A stretch of DNA of 37,591 bases, from NCBI GenBank assembly GCA_019510095.1, contig JAEKLB010000036.1, positions 1 to 37,591 of the forward strand. Direction: 5' to 3'. Of the stretch, positions 106 through 8,238 are shown one piece after another (within the stretch, counting starts at the first letter, position 1; every line of letters begins with the position of its first letter). The position numbers and the translations under genes are program-made. Under the pieces are notes generated by a model. That model searched no databases and was not told the DNA's origin. It was given only the letters and a program-made list of their open reading frames with translations. Source of the DNA: Acidobacteriota bacterium. Its GTDB lineage: Bacteria > Actinomycetota > Acidimicrobiia > Acidimicrobiales > CADCSY01.

Positions 106-2436
106 ATGTCGAGTCGCGAGTTGATCGACGAGGGTAAGAAGGCCCGCGACTCGGCGTCGGGCCGCGTCTCGGGTGTCTTCATCGTCGTCGCCAGCACGTT
201 CGCGGTGCTCAACGCCCTTGGCTTGGTCCCGGGTCTGCGGGATTCGACGTTCGTCATCCTCGGTACGGCCAGTGTCTTTTGCACTCTTTACGGCCTTCGT
301 CACCATCGACCGAAGCTTCGCTGGCCGTGGTGGACGATCACCGTGGCGCTCGGTCTGTTCGTCGCCGGCGGCGCGGCTCGGGCGACCTTCGGCGGTGTCG
401 GTGATCTGACCGCACACCGCTCCCTGATCCCGGACTCGATCACGATCCCGGGCTACCTCCTGTTCGGCGCAGGACTGAGCGCGATCGCCACGGCTCGTCG
501 CCGCGGGCAAGAGGGCAATCTCGACACCCTGCTCGACGCACTCGTCGCGGCCATGGCGGCCATGGCGCTGGCGTGGGTCTACCTCATCACGCCGAACCTG
601 GTCCAACACCATGCCCCGCTACCCGTCCGAGTGGTGCTCGTCGCCTATCCGTCCGTCTCGGTCTTCATGGTCAGCGCGATTGCTCGCATTGCCTTCAGCC
701 CGAGCACCCGGCGAGTGCCTGCCTTCCAGCTCTTGATGGCAGCGATGGCATGCATGCTCCTTGGAGATGTGCTCTACATCCTGGTCGAGCCAGGTGTCCT
801 GATCCCGCCCCTCTGGCTGCTCGACCTGCCGTACGCCTTCGCCTTCATCCTGTTCTCGGGCTGCGTCGCGCACCCCTCGATGGCCACGCTCTGCGAGCCG
901 GTGTCAGCTGAGGAAGCCGTCCCGAGCCAGACGCGCATGAACATGGTTGCACTGGCCCTCTGCGTGCCGTCAGTCGTGATGTTGACGCGGGCTGAGACCA
1001 CGGCGAGCGACCGCATTGCTCTCTCGGCTGTGGTCATCACCCTGACCGGGCTGGCCTCCTACCGGGTCCTGCGCGCCCTACGCGCCCACGCTCGGTCCGA
1101 GGAGCGTCTTGCCCATCAGGCCATGCACGACCACCTCACCGGGCTGCCCAACCAGCTCGTCATCCGCGAGGCGCTGTCCGAGGGCTTCGCCGAGGGTCGG
1201 CGCGAGCAGATGGCGATCCTGTTCGTCGATCTCGACCGCTTCAAGCTGGTCAACGACACCCACGGTCACTCATTCGGCGACGAGCTGTTGGTCGCGGTCG
1301 CCGCTCGACTCCGGGGAGTGGACGAGGCCGCGCTCGTCGCTCGCGTTGGCGGCGACGAATTCGTGCTCGTTCTCCGGGACATCGGCTCGCGGAGCGCGGC
1401 GATAGCGATCGCCGAGCGCGTTCGTCATGTCTTCGGTGAGCCGTTCAGACTCGGGACGGCCGAGGTGTACTCGTCGGCAAGTGTTGGCATCGCCTTCGCC
1501 ATGGACGCCGGTCCCGAGGTCGATGCAGAGGACATGATCCGCGACGCGGACACCGCGATGTACGAAGCGAAGGCTCATGGCCGGGACTCTGTGGCGGTGT
1601 TCGATCCGGCCATGCGCGAGCGAGTGACTGAGCGCCTCGGCCTTGAAAGCGATCTACGCCGGGCGCTCGAGAACAGGGAGCTCCGTCTTGCGTACCAACC
1701 GGTCATTCGCTATCCGGCCGGCCCCATAGACAGCGTGGAGGCCCTCGCCCGCTGGAACCATGAAACGTGGGGCGACGTGTCGCCGACTCGGTTCGTGCCG
1801 GTGGCGGAGGACACGGGACTCATCGTGGAGCTCGGGCACTGGGTGATCCGCGAGGCGTGCAGTGCCCTGGCCGGCTGGCGGCGCACCCTTCCGGGGGCCG
1901 AGCACCTCCAAGTCGGCATCAATCTCTCCGCCCGCCAGTTCCGCGACCCAACCCTGCTCGAGGTGATCCAGCAGGCGCTCCTCGACAACGACTTGCCAGC
2001 CGAGGCGGTGTGTCTCGAGCTGACCGAGTCGCTGCTGATCGACGAGCCAGAGACGGCGACCGAGCTCCTCTCCGCGTTTCACGCCCTGGGCATCCGCCTC
2101 GCCATCGATGACTTCGGCACCGGGTACTCGTCGCTGGCGTACCTCAAGAGGTTCCCGGTCGATGTGGTGAAGATCGACCGGTCGTTCGTCGAAGGGCTCA
2201 ACCGAGCTGACAGCTCAGACGAGACGCTCGTGGCCGCGATCGTCGCCATGGCCGGTGCCATGTCCATGACGACGATCGCCGAAGGCGTCGAGACGCCGGC
2301 CCAGGAGACGAAGCTGATCGGGCTGGGTTGCGATGCCGGCCAGGGCTTCCTCTACTGCCGGCCGATCCCGGCGGAGGAGATCCCGGCAGTGTTGCGCCGA
2401 ATAGCGGCGACCGAGTCGTCACTGCCGTCCTTGTAG
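106..2436 (+). CDS. Membrane-anchored GGDEF-EAL protein (cyclic di-GMP turnover)
   Basis: This 776-residue protein has a multi-pass N-terminal membrane domain (about residues 23-320, roughly eight to ten hydrophobic segments), then a GGDEF domain and an EAL domain. The cyclase signature GGDEF is intact at residues 415-419. No RxxD inhibitory site lies at the usual distance before it, so product inhibition may be absent. The EAL signature is at 545-547, followed by DDFGTGYSS near 668, KIDRSFV near 689 and AEGVET near 725, so the phosphodiesterase side also looks catalytically complete. The family makes or degrades cyclic di-GMP; which activity dominates cannot be read from sequence. The membrane domain resembles integral sensory domains, but its ligand is unknown. 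The ATG at 106 lacks a clear Shine-Dalgarno sequence, so a slightly later start is possible. Its last 85 bases overlap the end of the convergent acyltransferase-like gene. Confidence 0.9.
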   Translation: MSSRELIDEGKKARDSASGRVSGVFIVVASTFAVLNALGLVPGLRDSTFVILGTASVFCTLYGLRHHRPKLRWPWWTITVALGLFVAGGAARATFGGVGDLTAHRSLIPDSITIPGYLLFGAGLSAIATARRRGQEGNLDTLLDALVAAMAAMALAWVYLITPNLVQHHAPLPVRVVLVAYPSVSVFMVSAIARIAFSPSTRRVPAFQLLMAAMACMLLGDVLYILVEPGVLIPPLWLLDLPYAFAFILFSGCVAHPSMATLCEPVSAEEAVPSQTRMNMVALALCVPSVVMLTRAETTASDRIALSAVVITLTGLASYRVLRALRAHARSEERLAHQAMHDHLTGLPNQLVIREALSEGFAEGRREQMAILFVDLDRFKLVNDTHGHSFGDELLVAVAARLRGVDEAALVARVGGDEFVLVLRDIGSRSAAIAIAERVRHVFGEPFRLGTAEVYSSASVGIAFAMDAGPEVDAEDMIRDADTAMYEAKAHGRDSVAVFDPAMRERVTERLGLESDLRRALENRELRLAYQPVIRYPAGPIDSVEALARWNHETWGDVSPTRFVPVAEDTGLIVELGHWVIREACSALAGWRRTLPGAEHLQVGINLSARQFRDPTLLEVIQQALLDNDLPAEAVCLELTESLLIDEPETATELLSAFHALGIRLAIDDFGTGYSSLAYLKRFPVDVVKIDRSFVEGLNRADSSDETLVAAIVAMAGAMSMTTIAEGVETPAQETKLIGLGCDAGQGFLYCRPIPAEEIPAVLRRIAATESSLPSL

Positions 2437-3254
2437 TTCGCCGCCAGGCACGCCTCGCGGACGACGGTGGCCAGGCGATCCCAATCAGGCGCGGCAACTG
2501 CTTCCTCGTGCCCGGTTCCGTGGAAGAACAGATCGTGCAGCACCGGCTTCGCGTCGAGGAGCCGGTCGCGCCACTCGGCGATGTCACACCACACCGGCCG
2601 ACTCGAGGCCGAACCCAGATAGGGCCCAGCCGCGACTCCCTCGAAGGAGCGGAACAGGCTGGCGAGCTGCCACTGGAGCATGCGGAGCACGGCGGTGTCG
2701 AGGATGGCGACGAGGAACTCGTTGCCCCAGCGGGTCCCGGTCATGAAGAGGGCCTGGTACAGCGACAGGCTGACCAGACCGGCAGCGGCTTGTCCCCGGT
2801 AGTCCGGTGAGACGGCGAGGGTGGCGACGTCCCAAACAGCGTGGGTCCGGGGTGCGCCGTCGGTGCCGGCGATCACCTCTGCCGGATCCTTGCCCCACTC
2901 GCGGGCGAGGTCGTTGAGGCTCTTGAGCCCGGCGCCTGACGGCAGGATCACCCGCATGACGCCGGCGGTCACCCGGCGGCGATGGTCGATGACGACGAAG
3001 AAGAAGCTCGACGCCTCGTACGGGTCGTACTCGGCGGCCAGCAACTCGGGGGAGTCGCCGAAGGACTCCCGGAAGACCGAGCGCTCGAGTTGGCGGCCCA
3101 GCTCGGCACCGGGCTCGTCGGATCGGAAGCCGTAGAGGCCGAATGGCTCGGTGACGCCCTCCGGTACGACCTGCCCGATGAGAACGCTCTCCTCGAGGCG
3201 GCTGAGGTCGATGGTGCGGATGTCGATGCTGTTGAAGTCGAGGATGTCGGTCAT
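2352..3254 (-). CDS. LuxI-like (acyl-homoserine-lactone-synthase-fold) acyltransferase
   Basis: A 300-residue soluble protein. Residues 56-105 carry the LuxI-type signature order: LERSVFRESFG (compare the LuxI N-terminal R..F...W region), then EYDPYE at 75-80 (compare E-[FY]-D-x-[YF]-D), then a strand SSFFFVVID, then AGVMRVILPS with Arg101 where LuxI enzymes have their conserved RLLP-like Arg. A GNAT-like segment VSPDYRGQ lies further on. LuxI enzymes (about 200 residues) join S-adenosylmethionine to an acyl group to make homoserine lactone signals; related GNAT-fold enzymes make N-acyl amino acids. This one is longer and has Glu80 in place of the second Asp, so its substrate is open. The start ATG overlaps the upstream stop (TGATG) and follows a strong AGGGAG site, so translation is coupled to the SpeH-like gene. 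The family call rests on motif reading only. Confidence 0.6.
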   Translation of the reverse strand: MTDILDFNSIDIRTIDLSRLEESVLIGQVVPEGVTEPFGLYGFRSDEPGAELGRQLERSVFRESFGDSPELLAAEYDPYEASSFFFVVIDHRRRVTAGVMRVILPSGAGLKSLNDLAREWGKDPAEVIAGTDGAPRTHAVWDVATLAVSPDYRGQAAAGLVSLSLYQALFMTGTRWGNEFLVAILDTAVLRMLQWQLASLFRSFEGVAAGPYLGSASSRPVWCDIAEWRDRLLDAKPVLHDLFFHGTGHEEAVAAPDWDRLATVVREACLAANYKDGSDDSVAAIRRNTAGISSAGIGRQ

Positions 3255-3646
3255 CAGAACTCCCTTGCCACGATCTGGTCAGCGTCGAAGAAGCGCTGGG
3301 TGAACTCGACGACCCGGGCCGGGTCGAAGGCCTTGCACGTGTAGATGTCGACGCTGAAGAACCGCACGGGTCGGTCCCAGGCGTAGAAGTGGGCGCCCGA
3401 GGTCTCCCAGTGCACCCAGCCGGCCCAGCCGTACAGCGGGGACTCATGGGTGACCGGATCGGTGAGGACGACCATGTCGGTCACGTCCCCGAGCTGTCGC
3501 AGGTAGTCGCAGATCTGCTCGCGGGAGATGAGCTCGGGGCAGGTCCCTTCGACCACCAGCCGCTGCCGGTGGATCATAGGCGCCAAATCGGGCATTTCCC
3601 CTGGTGAACGTGCGATTGTCGGGTGGGTCAACGTCGAGAGAACCAT
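3254..3646 (-). CDS. S-adenosylmethionine decarboxylase-like (SpeH-like) protein
   Basis: A 130-residue protein whose second half aligns without gaps to the SpeH active-site region: YGWAGWVHWETSGAHFYAW against the family pattern YG..G...(x)ESHLTIHTW, then SVDIYTCK against AVDVFTCG, then FDPARVVEF against DPWKA. SpeH enzymes self-cleave at a serine to form a pyruvoyl cofactor and decarboxylate S-adenosylmethionine for spermidine synthesis. The cleavage serine (Ser83) and the catalytic cysteine (Cys104) are kept, but the preceding Glu is Thr82, the following His is Gly84, and the processing His five residues after the serine is Tyr88. No spermidine synthase is in the window. The start at 3646 is favoured because TACCGT (3654-3659) ends seven bases before it, as in other leaderless genes here; Met18 (codon at 3595) and Met24 are alternatives. 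It is the first gene of a coupled pair with the LuxI-like gene. Confidence 0.65.
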   Translation of the reverse strand: MVLSTLTHPTIARSPGEMPDLAPMIHRQRLVVEGTCPELISREQICDYLRQLGDVTDMVVLTDPVTHESPLYGWAGWVHWETSGAHFYAWDRPVRFFSVDIYTCKAFDPARVVEFTQRFFDADQIVAREF

Positions 3647-3822: not shown

Positions 3823-3891
3823 GGGGCCTAGTGCGTGTAAACGTCCCGCACCGGGCGTCGCGGCGCTGCGGCGGTAGGCTCCGTGCTGATC

Positions 3892-5820
3892 ATGACCTCG
3901 CTCTGGCCGCAGCTCGAGCCCTTGCTCGCGCAGGTGGAGAAGCCAGCCCGTTACATCGGCTGCGAGGACGGCGCCCTTGAGCCAACCCTCTCGGCAGGCG
4001 ATGTGGCGTGGCTGTTGGTCTATCCCGACACCTACGAGATCGGGTTGCCCAACCAAGGCCTCCAGATCCTCTACGAGCTGTTGAACGAGCACGCCGGTGC
4101 CATCGCCGAGCGGGCCTATGCCCCCTGGACCGATCTCGAGGCGCTGCTTCGGGACAACGGCCTGCCCTTGTTCAGCGTCGACACCCACCGCCCGGCTGGC
4201 GAGTTCGACGTCCTCGCCTTCAACCTGTCGGCGGAGCTCGTCTACACCAACGTCCTGAACTGCATCGACCTGGCCGGGGTGCCGGTGCGGGCGGCTGATC
4301 GCGCCGATCACGACCCGATCGTCATCGCCGGTGGCCACTGCACCTACAACCCCGAGCCCCTCGCGGACTTCCTCGACGCGGTGGTGTTGGGTGACGGCGA
4401 GGAGGTGATCGCCGAGATCTCCGACGTCATCGCCAGCTGGAAGGGCGCCGGCGGCGTCGAGCGACAGCAGCTCCTCATGTCGCTCGCCCAGATCACCGGT
4501 GTCTACGTTCCGAGCCTCTACGACGTCCGCTTCGACGGGCCGGCGGTGGCGTCGATCGAGCCCCGATATGTCGGTGTCCCGGCCCGGATCGAGAAGCGGA
4601 CCGTCACCGATCTGGGCGAGTGGCCCTACCCGAAGCACCAGCTGGTGCCCCTCACCGAGGTCGTGCACGACCGCCTCAACGTCGAGGTCTTCCGGGGGTG
4701 CACGCGCGGTTGCCGGTTCTGCCAGGCCGGGATGATCACCCGCCCGGTGCGTGAGCGCCCTGCGGACCAGGTCCGGACGATGGTCTCCGAGGGGCTGCGC
4801 CGCACCGGCTACGACGAGGTGGCGCTGACCAGCCTCTCGACCGCCGACTTCAGCGGCATCGAGCAGGTCGTCGGCGACATCGTGGGTTGCGGCGACAACA
4901 TCTCGGTGAGCCTGCCGAGCCTGCGGGTCGACGCGTTCACCGTCGGCATCGCCAACCAGCTCCAAGGCGGGCGGCGCACCGGCCTGACCTTCGCTCCCGA
5001 GGCCGGCACGTGGCGCATGCGCCAGGTCATCAACAAGCTGATCCGGGAAGAGGATCTCTACGCTGCCGTCGACGCTGCCTTCTCCCAGGGTTGGCGCCGG
5101 GTGAAGCTCTACTTCCTGACCGGGCTGCCGAGTGAGACCGACGAGGACACCCTCGGCATCGCCGCCCTCGCCCGCAACTGCGCTGCCATCGGCCGGAAGC
5201 ACACGTCGGGTGCGTCGGTCACCGTGTCGGTCGGTGGCTTCGTTCCCAAGCCGTTTACGCCGTTCCAGTGGTTCGGCCAGAACACGGCCGAGGAGCTCAC
5301 CCGCAAGATGTACCTCCTTCGCGACGCCCTGCGACGCGAACGGGGAGTGCAGTTCAAGTGGCACGACCCCAAGGCCACCCTCGTCGAGGGCATCGCCAGC
5401 CGAGGTGATCGCCGGCTCGGCGCCGTGATCGAGCAGGTCTGGCGGCGGGGAGGCACCTTCCAGGAGTGGTCGGAGCACTTCGACCTCAACCTCTGGCTCG
5501 ACGCCCTGGCAGACCATGGCCTCTCGGTCGAGGACCTCGTCTACCGCCACCGCGCCGAGGGCGAGACCCTGCCCTGGGACCACCTCTCCGCCGGGCTCCA
5601 CAAGGACTTCCTGTGGCAGGACTGGCGGGACGCCTTGGCCGAGGTCGGCCTGCCCGACTGCCGCTGGACGCCCTGTTACGACTGCGGCGCCTGCACCGGC
5701 TACGCGCTCGAGCACGTGGTCGCGTCGGCCGTCCCGCCGGCCGGCGGGAGCCAGGGGACCGGCCAGGACCTCTCGACCGGGGGCTGGGTGCCGGTCGAGC
5801 TGGTTGGGGTTCGGCCGTGA
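3892..5820 (+). CDS. B12-binding-like radical SAM protein (TIGR03960 family)
   Basis: A 642-residue protein. The N-terminal part (about 20-200) resembles a B12-binding region (VYPDTYEIGLPNQGLQILYE), and a radical SAM domain follows with the Cx3CxxC cluster motif at Cys270, Cys274 and Cys277 (GCTRGCRFC). The tail holds a further Cys cluster (CYDCGACTGY). Proteins of this family sit beside DUF2344 proteins and RNase E/G in many Gram-positive genomes, and the pair may form one enzyme acting on tRNA or ribosomal RNA; the reaction is not established. The same context is seen here: the next gene overlaps by GTGA and then comes rne. ATG at 3892 is chosen over the GTG at 3883 because TAGGCT (3875-3880) ends too close to the GTG to precede it on an mRNA. 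Confidence 0.9.
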   Translation: MTSLWPQLEPLLAQVEKPARYIGCEDGALEPTLSAGDVAWLLVYPDTYEIGLPNQGLQILYELLNEHAGAIAERAYAPWTDLEALLRDNGLPLFSVDTHRPAGEFDVLAFNLSAELVYTNVLNCIDLAGVPVRAADRADHDPIVIAGGHCTYNPEPLADFLDAVVLGDGEEVIAEISDVIASWKGAGGVERQQLLMSLAQITGVYVPSLYDVRFDGPAVASIEPRYVGVPARIEKRTVTDLGEWPYPKHQLVPLTEVVHDRLNVEVFRGCTRGCRFCQAGMITRPVRERPADQVRTMVSEGLRRTGYDEVALTSLSTADFSGIEQVVGDIVGCGDNISVSLPSLRVDAFTVGIANQLQGGRRTGLTFAPEAGTWRMRQVINKLIREEDLYAAVDAAFSQGWRRVKLYFLTGLPSETDEDTLGIAALARNCAAIGRKHTSGASVTVSVGGFVPKPFTPFQWFGQNTAEELTRKMYLLRDALRRERGVQFKWHDPKATLVEGIASRGDRRLGAVIEQVWRRGGTFQEWSEHFDLNLWLDALADHGLSVEDLVYRHRAEGETLPWDHLSAGLHKDFLWQDWRDALAEVGLPDCRWTPCYDCGACTGYALEHVVASAVPPAGGSQGTGQDLSTGGWVPVELVGVRP

Positions 5821-6599
5821 TCCGCTTCCGTCTCCGCCACACGAAGTTGGGGAAGCTGCGGTTCATCAGCCACCGCGACATCGCCCGGGTGTGGGAGCGA
5901 GCGCTGCGCAAGGCCGACATGCCGGTCGCCTACACCGCCGGCTTCTCGCCCCGCCCGAAGCTGGCGTTCGGGCTCGCGCTCTCCACCGGCCACGAGTCGA
6001 TGGCCGAGTACCTCGACATCGAGCTCCGCCCCGATGAGGGCCTCGAGATCGATGTCACGACCTTGCCCGAGCGGCTGAACGAACAGCTGCCACCGGGCAT
6101 CGATGTCACCGCCGCCGCCCCCTTGGCGCCGGGAACGCTGTCACTGCAGGAATCCGTGACGTCCTGCACCTGGCGGATCGAGGTCCCCGGCCTCGCTCCG
6201 GCGGCCGTCTCCGACCTGGCGACCGCGGCACTTGCCGCCGATGCCCTGGTCCTGACCCGTGTCCGCAAGGGCAAGGAGGTCACCGATGACCTCCGGCCCG
6301 CAATTCTGTCCCTGACCATCACCGGGCCCACCGCGACCGGCACCGAGCTCGAAGCAGAGCTCGCTGTCCATCCGCGCAGCGTCCGCCCCGCCGAGCTGCT
6401 CCGGGCCATATCGCCTGGTCATCCGCTCGTCGAGGGGCGCGTGCTGCGGGTCGCCCAGTGGACCTGGCGCGACGGCGCCCGGCACGAGCCGCTGGCGACG
6501 TCGCAGCCCCCACGAGAGGACCCTGATGTCCGACCCCGCGTCGCCGCTGCCGTCGAACGAGCCCAACCACAACCATTCGGAGAGCGCCTCCTCGCCTGA
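5817..6599 (+). CDS. DUF2344 (TIGR03936) protein, partner of the radical SAM protein
   Basis: A 260-residue protein beginning VIRFRLRHTKLGKLRFISHRD, the typical start of DUF2344 proteins, followed by GFSPRPKLAFGLALSTGHES. The GTG start at 5817 overlaps the stop of the radical SAM gene (GTGA), which indicates translational coupling and a stable pairing of the two products; in some bacteria the two domains are one polypeptide. The biochemical role is unknown. The C-terminal 30 or so residues look poorly structured, and their DNA also encodes the start of rne in another frame (74-base overlap), so this tail may be a by-product of read-through to the next available stop. Confidence 0.85.
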   Translation: MIRFRLRHTKLGKLRFISHRDIARVWERALRKADMPVAYTAGFSPRPKLAFGLALSTGHESMAEYLDIELRPDEGLEIDVTTLPERLNEQLPPGIDVTAAAPLAPGTLSLQESVTSCTWRIEVPGLAPAAVSDLATAALAADALVLTRVRKGKEVTDDLRPAILSLTITGPTATGTELEAELAVHPRSVRPAELLRAISPGHPLVEGRVLRVAQWTWRDGARHEPLATSQPPREDPDVRPRVAAAVERAQPQPFGERLLA

Positions 6600-8238
6600 G
6601 GACGGGGACCGCAAGCCCCGCCGGCGGGGGTCCCGGGGCGGTCGCAACCGCAACCGCCGGCCGGGGGAGATCGTCGAGGGCGGCACCCCGACCACCCCGT
6701 CGCCTGAGGCGGGCCGGCCCCGAATCGGGGACAGCCGGCCGGCGCCCGCCGTTGGCTCGACGGCCGGCCGCGCCCGGAGTGAGCGGCCGGCAGCCGAGCG
6801 GTCGGGATCAGATGGCGGCGATCCCCAGCGGCGCCGGCGCCGCCGGGGCGGTCGGAGCCGTGGCGGCGGCGGAGGCCGCTCGTCGGAGATCCGAGCTGTC
6901 GAACCGGAGCTCGACCCCGAGCTGCTCGAGCGCCGCCGGGGCCGGGAGCGGAAGGGCCGGCCGGTCGGCCGCTACCTCATGTGCGTCCACACCCGGGCGG
7001 AGGCGACCCAGATCGCCGTCCTCGAAGGCCGCTCGCTGATCGAGCACTACGTGAGCCGGCCCCAGGACGATTCCACCGAGATCCACGGCAACATCTACGT
7101 CGGGCGGGTACAGAACGTCCTTCCCGGCATGGAGGCGGCGTTCGTCGACATCGGCACGCCGAAGAACGCCGTGCTGTACCGGGGCGACGTCACCTTCGAC
7201 GCCGACGACGTCGAGAGCCGTGGAGGCGGCGGCCAGGCTCGCATCGAGCAGCTGCTCCGGCCCAAGCAGATGATCGTCTGCCAGGTCACCAAGAACCCGA
7301 TTGGCGCCAAGGGCGCCCGGCTGACCCAAGAGGTGTCCCTGCCCGGGCGGTTCGTGGTGCTGGTGCCGAACTCGTCGACGTATGGGATCTCCAAGCGGCT
7401 CTCAGACGACGAGCGCAAGCGGCTGCGGGCGATCCTCGACAAGATCAAGCCGGCCGAGCACGGCCTCATCGTCCGCACCGCGGCCGAAGGGGCCACCCGG
7501 GAGGAGCTCGAGCGCGACATGGCCCGCCTGCTGGCCCAGTGGTCGCAGATCGAGGCCACCGCCAAGCGGGCCAACTCGCCGACCCTCCTCTACCGCGAGC
7601 CGGACATGGCCGTTCGGGTGATCCGGGAGGAGTTCAACTCCTCGTACCGGGGTGTCGTCATCGACGACCCCGCCCTCTACGAGGAGGTCAGGGACTACGT
7701 CGCTTCCATCACGCCGGAGCTGGCCGACCGGGTGGAGCTGCATGACCCGGACGAGGAGTCACTGTCCCTGTTCGAGCAGTTCCACATCCACGAGCAGCTC
7801 CACAAGGCGCTCGACCGCAAGGTGTGGCTCCCGTCGGGCGGCTCGCTCATCATCGAGCGGACCGAGGCCCTGACCGTGATCGACGTCAACACCGGCAAGA
7901 ACGTGGGCACCTCGAACCTCGAGGAGACGGTCTTCCGGAACAACCTGGAGGCCGCCGAGGAGGTGGCCCGCCAGCTCCGGCTCCGTGACATCGGGGGCAT
8001 CATCGTCATCGACTTCATCGACATGGAGATCAAGCGGAACCGCGACGAGGTCATCCGGGTCTTCCGTGATGCCCTGGCCAGGGACAAGACCCGGACCCAG
8101 GTCTTCGACATCTCCGAGCTGGGCCTGGTCGAGATGACCCGGAAGCGGATCGGCGAGGGCCTGCTCGAGTCGATGTCGAGCACCTGTCCGATGTGCGACG
8201 GCCGGGGCGTGGTCGTCGACAAGTCACTGCTCGACTGA
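6526..8238 (+). CDS. rng: Ribonuclease E/G
   Basis: A 570-residue endoribonuclease that processes rRNA and starts mRNA decay. Residues 1-130 are Arg/Gly/Pro-rich and probably disordered, with RGSRGGR and RRRRRRGGR runs suited to RNA binding. An S1-like domain follows (NIYVGRVQNVLPGMEAAFVDIG), then the catalytic domain with the two metal-binding aspartates, Asp453 in VIDVNTGK and Asp496 in VIDFIDM. The zinc-link motif CPMC (Cys554, Cys557) is close to the C terminus, so the protein ends soon after the catalytic core and lacks the long E. coli RNase E scaffold. The ATG is preceded by GAGAGGA at good spacing, which supports a start inside the previous gene. Symbol rng or rne is equally defensible. 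Confidence 0.93.
   Translation: MSDPASPLPSNEPNHNHSESASSPEDGDRKPRRRGSRGGRNRNRRPGEIVEGGTPTTPSPEAGRPRIGDSRPAPAVGSTAGRARSERPAAERSGSDGGDPQRRRRRRGGRSRGGGGGRSSEIRAVEPELDPELLERRRGRERKGRPVGRYLMCVHTRAEATQIAVLEGRSLIEHYVSRPQDDSTEIHGNIYVGRVQNVLPGMEAAFVDIGTPKNAVLYRGDVTFDADDVESRGGGGQARIEQLLRPKQMIVCQVTKNPIGAKGARLTQEVSLPGRFVVLVPNSSTYGISKRLSDDERKRLRAILDKIKPAEHGLIVRTAAEGATREELERDMARLLAQWSQIEATAKRANSPTLLYREPDMAVRVIREEFNSSYRGVVIDDPALYEEVRDYVASITPELADRVELHDPDEESLSLFEQFHIHEQLHKALDRKVWLPSGGSLIIERTEALTVIDVNTGKNVGTSNLEETVFRNNLEAAEEVARQLRLRDIGGIIVIDFIDMEIKRNRDEVIRVFRDALARDKTRTQVFDISELGLVEMTRKRIGEGLLESMSSTCPMCDGRGVVVDKSLLD

Follow-up and report, generated by a model that had tools for sequence, protein, structure and literature searches.

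A conserved pair of SpeD-fold and LuxI/FeeM-type proteins beside membrane GGDEF-EAL proteins looks like an undescribed bacterial signalling system

Introduction

LuxI-type signalling has been described chiefly from Proteobacteria. We analyzed a 37,591-nt stretch (hereafter, the window) from a member of the Acidimicrobiia, within the Actinomycetota (contig JAEKLB010000036.1 of assembly GCA_019510095.1, which is contig 35 of a draft genome of 2.95 Mb that is 97% complete). The window carries two overlapping genes, one for a protein with the fold of S-adenosylmethionine (SAM) decarboxylase (SpeD, or AdoMetDC), here named P1, and one for an acyltransferase of the LuxI/FeeM type, here named P2. A first-pass annotation of the sequence had proposed that the pair constitutes a SAM-derived signal or metabolite system, but it had overlooked the adjacent gene for a membrane protein with GGDEF and EAL domains. 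Together, P1, P2 and this putative sensor have the appearance of a bacterial cell-signalling system that has not been described before. The arrangement of a signal synthase with its receptor is already known; what appears to be new is the SpeD-like partner and the transmembrane (TM) GGDEF-EAL receptor. Indeed, we found no paper in the open-licence PubMed Central literature that describes such a receptor or that joins SpeD-like and LuxI-like proteins, in agreement with the first-pass annotation, which knew of no pathway combining the two families.

Several described systems resemble parts of this locus. The RpfF/RpfR system of Burkholderia and Cronobacter consists of the synthase of the Burkholderia diffusible signal factor and a PAS-GGDEF-EAL receptor, and the synthase gene is convergent with the receptor gene (PMC6361424). 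The window shows the same convergent layout (Table 1), but its synthase is a GNAT/LuxI-fold acyltransferase accompanied by a SpeD-like protein rather than RpfF, and its sensor domain comprises about eight TM segments rather than FI-PAS. The LuxI-family acyl-homoserine lactone (AHL) synthases, such as LasI, BjaI and RpaI, share with P2 the fold (Z 14-14.6) and distant profile matches; P2 differs in the replacement of three signature residues, in additional C-terminal helices and in its SpeD-like partner. The N-acyl amino acid synthase FeeM is structurally the best match of P2, but its profile is matched by few P2 relatives, and we know of no SpeD partner of FeeM. P1 shares its fold, the pyruvoyl serine and the equivalent of Cys83 with class 1b AdoMetDC/SpeD and its neofunctionalized ornithine decarboxylase (ODC) and arginine decarboxylase forms (PMC10407285), from which it differs by two active-site substitutions, its separate clade, the lack of SpeE and its LuxI-like partner. 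Finally, 18 pairs of neighboring LuxI homologues and sensory kinases were reported in bacteria of the candidate phyla radiation, in a paper whose text does not mention SAM (PMC7567580). A kinase also lies beside the pairs of Saccharibacteria, and our comparison with that study is by kinase adjacency alone; neither a SpeD-like partner nor a GGDEF-EAL receptor was found described there.

Conservation of the P1-P2 pair

The P1-P2 pair is real and old. Scanning 84,980 species genomes yielded at least 140 relatives of P1, and the best 80 loci were examined for P2. A P2 homologue passing the profile threshold was encoded directly downstream of P1 in 71 of these 80 loci, usually within 3 bp, and a 72nd locus (L048) carries a divergent P2-like gene. 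The one-base overlap of the window is found identically in 28 of 82 pairs. Carriers include relatives of Actinoplanes, Actinotalea, Geodermatophilaceae, Nocardioidaceae, Mycolicibacterium, Saccharibacteria and Acidimicrobiia, and the distribution is patchy, with one to a few percent of the sampled genomes carrying the pair. In a survey of 296 genomes of the class, P2 was present in 13 (a further match, in genome G109, proved spurious) and P1 lay directly upstream in 10 of these 13 loci, with 58-65% identity. Distances between P1 proteins correlate with those between their P2 partners (r 0.74), P1 being the more conserved of the two (about 60% identity vs 25-45%). The recurrence of the pair across phyla rules out that the two genes are chance neighbors. 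These results bear out the earlier proposal in part: the homologues do co-occur and are conserved as a unit, profile searches place neither protein firmly in an unrelated family, and the pair is still best read as a signal or metabolite system.

P1 also occurs in other settings. Solitary variants (motifs SGC/SGS-HFYxW and FFS(A/S)DIYTC) were found without P2 at loci L029, L033, L080 and L092, whose hosts are Bacteroidota, Peregrinibacteria and an archaeal bin. In Micavibrio (L053:8363-10641) and Bdellovibrionales (L073:8402-10612), the P1 gene is followed by a gene for a protein of 255-306 aa and then by a class I aminotransferase gene, with no P2. This is a second, different set of P1 partners. 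The 255-306 aa protein matched no Pfam or PDB profile, and our guess that it is nicotianamine-synthase-like was therefore not confirmed.

Linkage to membrane sensor genes

The strongest evidence for signalling is the recurrent linkage of the pair to GGDEF-EAL genes. The window protein matches both domains clearly (GGDEF, 1.7e-38; EAL, 1.3e-71), and the catalytic motifs of both are intact in 29 of 29 aligned proteins. No PAS domain was detected in it; instead, its N-terminus presents about eight TM segments, and these N-terminal ~330 residues match no Pfam family. We called the neighboring genes around 86 non-duplicate loci, using a simple codon-score script outside the window. In 40 of the 86 loci, the pair has a GGDEF-EAL gene as its immediate neighbor; among the 694 other genes of these stretches, 3 encode such a protein (Fisher 3e-27, without correction for shared ancestry). 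Since the genomes encode 10-34 EAL proteins each, we estimate the probability of adjacency by chance at about 1%. These 40 neighbors are arranged in four ways: downstream of the pair, 30 are convergent and 3 co-directional; upstream, 5 are co-directional and 2 lie on the opposite strand. The linkage was hence established anew or reshuffled on more than one occasion. Convergent GGDEF-EAL genes were also found beside P2 genes that lack P1.

Every one of the 13 class genomes with a genuine P2 contains matches to the TM domain, as do 44 of the 283 others (p 1.5e-10), and distances between TM domains correlate with those between P2 proteins (r 0.95). The nine strongest matches all lie in P2-carrying genomes and on the very contigs of P2, partly by construction, as linked copies had served to build the profile.

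A histidine kinase adjoins the pair in 9 further loci, one of which presents PF16927. A multi-TM histidine kinase, of the HisKA_7TM type in L088, is encoded by the gene that comes next in Mycolicibacterium sphagni and Saccharibacteria; the latter also carry a response regulator gene upstream of P1, in divergent orientation. Other neighbors were observed in the Actinoplanes-type set (L016-L028 and L027-L081), which comprises Paractinoplanes, Couchioplanes and relatives: in one group, the pair adjoins a gene for a protein with a Ser/Thr-kinase-like start and, in another, an RsmE-like gene and a similar gene.

P2, an acyltransferase of the LuxI/FeeM type

The window P2 alone gave a weak, sub-threshold match to GNAT and no match to Autoind_synth (PF00765) at E-values up to 1. 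Of its 78 relatives, most (58/78) match TIGR03694, with a best E-value of 1.2e-9; 13 match PF00765 (best 3.9e-5), 13 match TraI, and four, which do not include the window P2, match the FeeM profile (PF21926). The AlphaFold2 model of P2 (predicted local distance difference test, pLDDT, 90.5) has FeeM as its best fold match (Z 16.1), followed by LasI and BjaI (both 14.6). The family matches of its relatives and these fold matches place P2 among the acyltransferases that make up the AHL/N-acyl-amino-acid synthase group. Exosortase-associated acyltransferases and FeeM resemble P2 as much as LuxI does.

The earlier description of P2 as LuxI-like thus stands for family and fold, but not for the signature residues. 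We take these to be R23, F27, W33, R70, E101 and R104 in LasI numbering. In an alignment to LasI that is itself weak (E 0.28), R23 corresponds to Glu57 in 78/78 relatives, W33 to Asn67 in 76/78 (Asp in the window) and R104 to Thr/Ser145 in 77/78; F27 and R70 are kept, and E101 is replaced by Asp in most of the 78. Because R23, W33 and R104 are missing, P2 is probably not an AHL synthase. The loss of two arginines, together with a new glutamate, would be in keeping with an acceptor that lacks the carboxylate of SAM, for instance an amine.

P1, an altered SpeD-fold protein

The first-pass annotation had assigned P1 as SpeH-like, and both profile and structure agree with it. P1 scores 36.6 bits against PF02675 (AdoMet_dc), above the Pfam gathering score of 25, and all 74 relatives compared match this family at E-values up to 0.1. 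The sequence profile of P1 retrieved only chance matches to RNA-binding proteins from the PDB, but a fold search with its AlphaFold2 model (pLDDT 92.6) did retrieve AdoMetDC, the closest fold being that of Thermotoga maritima (1vr7; Z 14.2, 2.4 A over 106 residues). The N-domain of human spermine synthase is also among the closest folds (Z 10.4).

The active site is recognizable and changed. P1 aligns without gaps to the active-site strand of SpeD from S55 to the position of W70, as had been described earlier; the gap-free alignment does not extend to Cys83, whose equivalent in P1 is Cys104, with one residue inserted ahead of it. Within the strand, Ser63 corresponds to Ser83, His68 to Tyr88, Ser55 to Ala75 and Glu62 to Thr82. 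Across 90 P1 homologues, Ser83, Tyr88, Cys104, His79, His86, Arg27, Arg29 and Glu33 are invariant, and the alanine at the Ser55 position is found in essentially all. S63, H68 and C83 are essential for the self-processing of T. maritima AdoMetDC (PMC10407285); P1 thus keeps two of these three residues, the serine and the cysteine, and presents a tyrosine in place of His68. Deep relatives of P1, some of them on cyanobacterial plasmids, also retain Ser, Tyr and Cys, and we therefore favor a pyruvoyl enzyme that is altered yet still active, rather than an inactive one. Two such relatives, L134:5040-5396 and L135:5001-5363, lie on plasmids of Acaryochloris and Nostoc; the Acaryochloris plasmid is conjugative, and the P1 relative on it is preceded by a gene for a two-GNAT protein.

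In a phylogenetic tree whose rooting is limited by long branches, P1 forms its own clade (100/99 support), apart from canonical SpeD and from the ornithine-type group. A placement in the SpeDC ODC branch, with which P1 shares a threonine before the serine, was not supported by this tree. P1 misses the threshold of the SAM decarboxylase equivalog TIGR03330 by far (15.4 vs 75.65 bits). No match to the spermidine synthase family TIGR00417 (SpeE) was found in the genome of the window, and one of 25 P1-bearing genomes presents a match above the cut-off. The missing SpeE and the TIGR03330 result rule out the canonical spermidine pathway, and the absence of SpeE together with Tyr at H68 and Ala at S55 makes canonical SAM decarboxylation by P1 appear unlikely. 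The earlier idea that P1 may decarboxylate SAM was thus not supported.

Gene layout in the window

The features of the locus are collected in Table 1. Both reading frames and the AGGGAG motif reported in the first-pass annotation were recovered. The TGA of P1 (3256-3254) and the ATG of P2 (3254-3252) share one base, and the 3' ends of P2 and the GGDEF-EAL gene overlap by 85 bp. Conservation of the P1 family begins at residues 18-20 (MPDLAP), where an internal ATG is found (3595-3593), so base 3595 may be the true start of P1. Positions 3883-8238 hold ordinary neighbors: a TIGR03960 B12/radical SAM protein, a TIGR03936 protein and RNase E/G.

Table 1. Coordinates of the features of the locus in the window.
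Feature	Position	Strand	Basis or remarks
P1, SpeD/AdoMetDC-fold protein, 130 aa	3254..3646	-	PF02675, AlphaFold2 model, fold match, 90 homologues
P2, LuxI/FeeM-type GNAT acyltransferase, 300 aa	2352..3254	-	AlphaFold2 model, fold matches, family matches in 78 homologues
TGATG stop/start overlap and AGGGAG ribosome-binding site (3265-3260)	3252..3265	-	
Candidate receptor, membrane GGDEF-EAL protein, 776 aa, convergent with P2	106..2436	+	
N-terminal region of candidate receptor, ~8 TM segments	106..1110	+	P163, P182, D221, G88 conserved

Discussion

On balance, we lean toward the view that P1 and P2 make a small diffusible N-acylated molecule that is sensed by the adjacent membrane protein. 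P2 would use acyl-ACP or acyl-CoA as the donor to acylate an amine acceptor. P1, as a neofunctionalized SpeD, would probably self-cleave at Ser83 to give a pyruvoyl enzyme and may either supply the amine by decarboxylating an amino acid or decarboxylate the acylated product; it is unlikely to yield decarboxylated SAM. The signal would act on the ~8-TM domain of the GGDEF-EAL neighbor and change cyclic di-GMP (c-di-GMP), and in Saccharibacteria and Mycolicibacterium a histidine kinase of the HisKA_7TM type would fill the receptor role. We advance only tentatively the broader proposal of a new class of cell-cell signal: across Actinomycetota, a LuxI-fold synthase and a pyruvoyl SpeD-like enzyme would jointly produce an acylated amine, and a membrane c-di-GMP enzyme would sense it directly, with a histidine kinase in its place in Saccharibacteria.

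Several observations weigh against this model. His68, required for self-processing in SpeD, is Tyr in P1, which may leave P1 unprocessed. A convergent GGDEF-EAL gene accompanies P2 in three genomes (97%, 98% and 89% complete) that have no P1 anywhere; P1 is thus not always needed, P2 being the core of the system and P1 a frequent accessory. Conversely, P1 is found without P2 in six genomes. Most Actinoplanes-type loci have neither a GGDEF-EAL nor a histidine kinase gene adjacent to them. Common ancestry of the TM domains of the GGDEF-EAL proteins and of the histidine kinases was not detected (hhalign probability 0.9%). Finally, the wider TM-domain family occurs in 57 of the 296 class genomes, including genomes without P2, and the domain may therefore be a broader undescribed membrane sensor domain.

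The main competing explanation holds P1 to be a SpeD-fold subunit without catalytic activity that binds P2 and regulates or stabilizes it, while P2 alone would make the acyl signal; comparable cases are the prozyme of trypanosomatids and the N-domain of spermine synthase, which is likewise non-catalytic. The replacements of H68 and S55, the genomes that retain P2 and receptor without P1, the closeness in fold to the spermine synthase N-domain and the stronger conservation of P1 relative to P2 are all in its favor. However, the pyruvoyl serine and the cysteine are invariant (90/90), in deep P2-less relatives as well, and would be needless in a pure scaffold; P1 also occurs elsewhere without P2. 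We consider this explanation rather unlikely. Less probable still is a reading in which the two genes form an operon for the biosynthesis of an acylated metabolite or lipid without a signalling role, the neighboring sensor genes merely regulating its timing. The similarity of P2 to FeeM and exosortase-associated acyltransferases and the lack of an adjacent receptor in most Actinoplanes-type pairs would fit such an operon, but the convergent layout, the repeated linkage to output enzymes instead of transcription regulators and the change of receptor type between lineages argue against it. Lastly, P1 and P2 could simply be ordinary members of their parent families, a SAM decarboxylase and an AHL synthase, respectively, brought together by chance or by a shared SAM supply. 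Both parent families use SAM and both folds match; however, the replacement of LuxI R23, W33 and R104 by E, N and T/S, the missed TIGR03330 threshold, the absence of SpeE from the genome and the recurrence of the pairing across phyla make this very improbable.

Cultured carriers exist in Actinotalea, Blastococcus, Geodermatophilus and Paractinoplanes, and the proposed signalling system is therefore directly testable. If the proposal is true, Actinomycetota and the tiny Saccharibacteria would possess a signal synthase module wired straight to c-di-GMP or to a histidine kinase, whose product is probably not a homoserine lactone, and the SpeD fold would have been recruited to a role apart from the decarboxylation of SAM and of ornithine or arginine.

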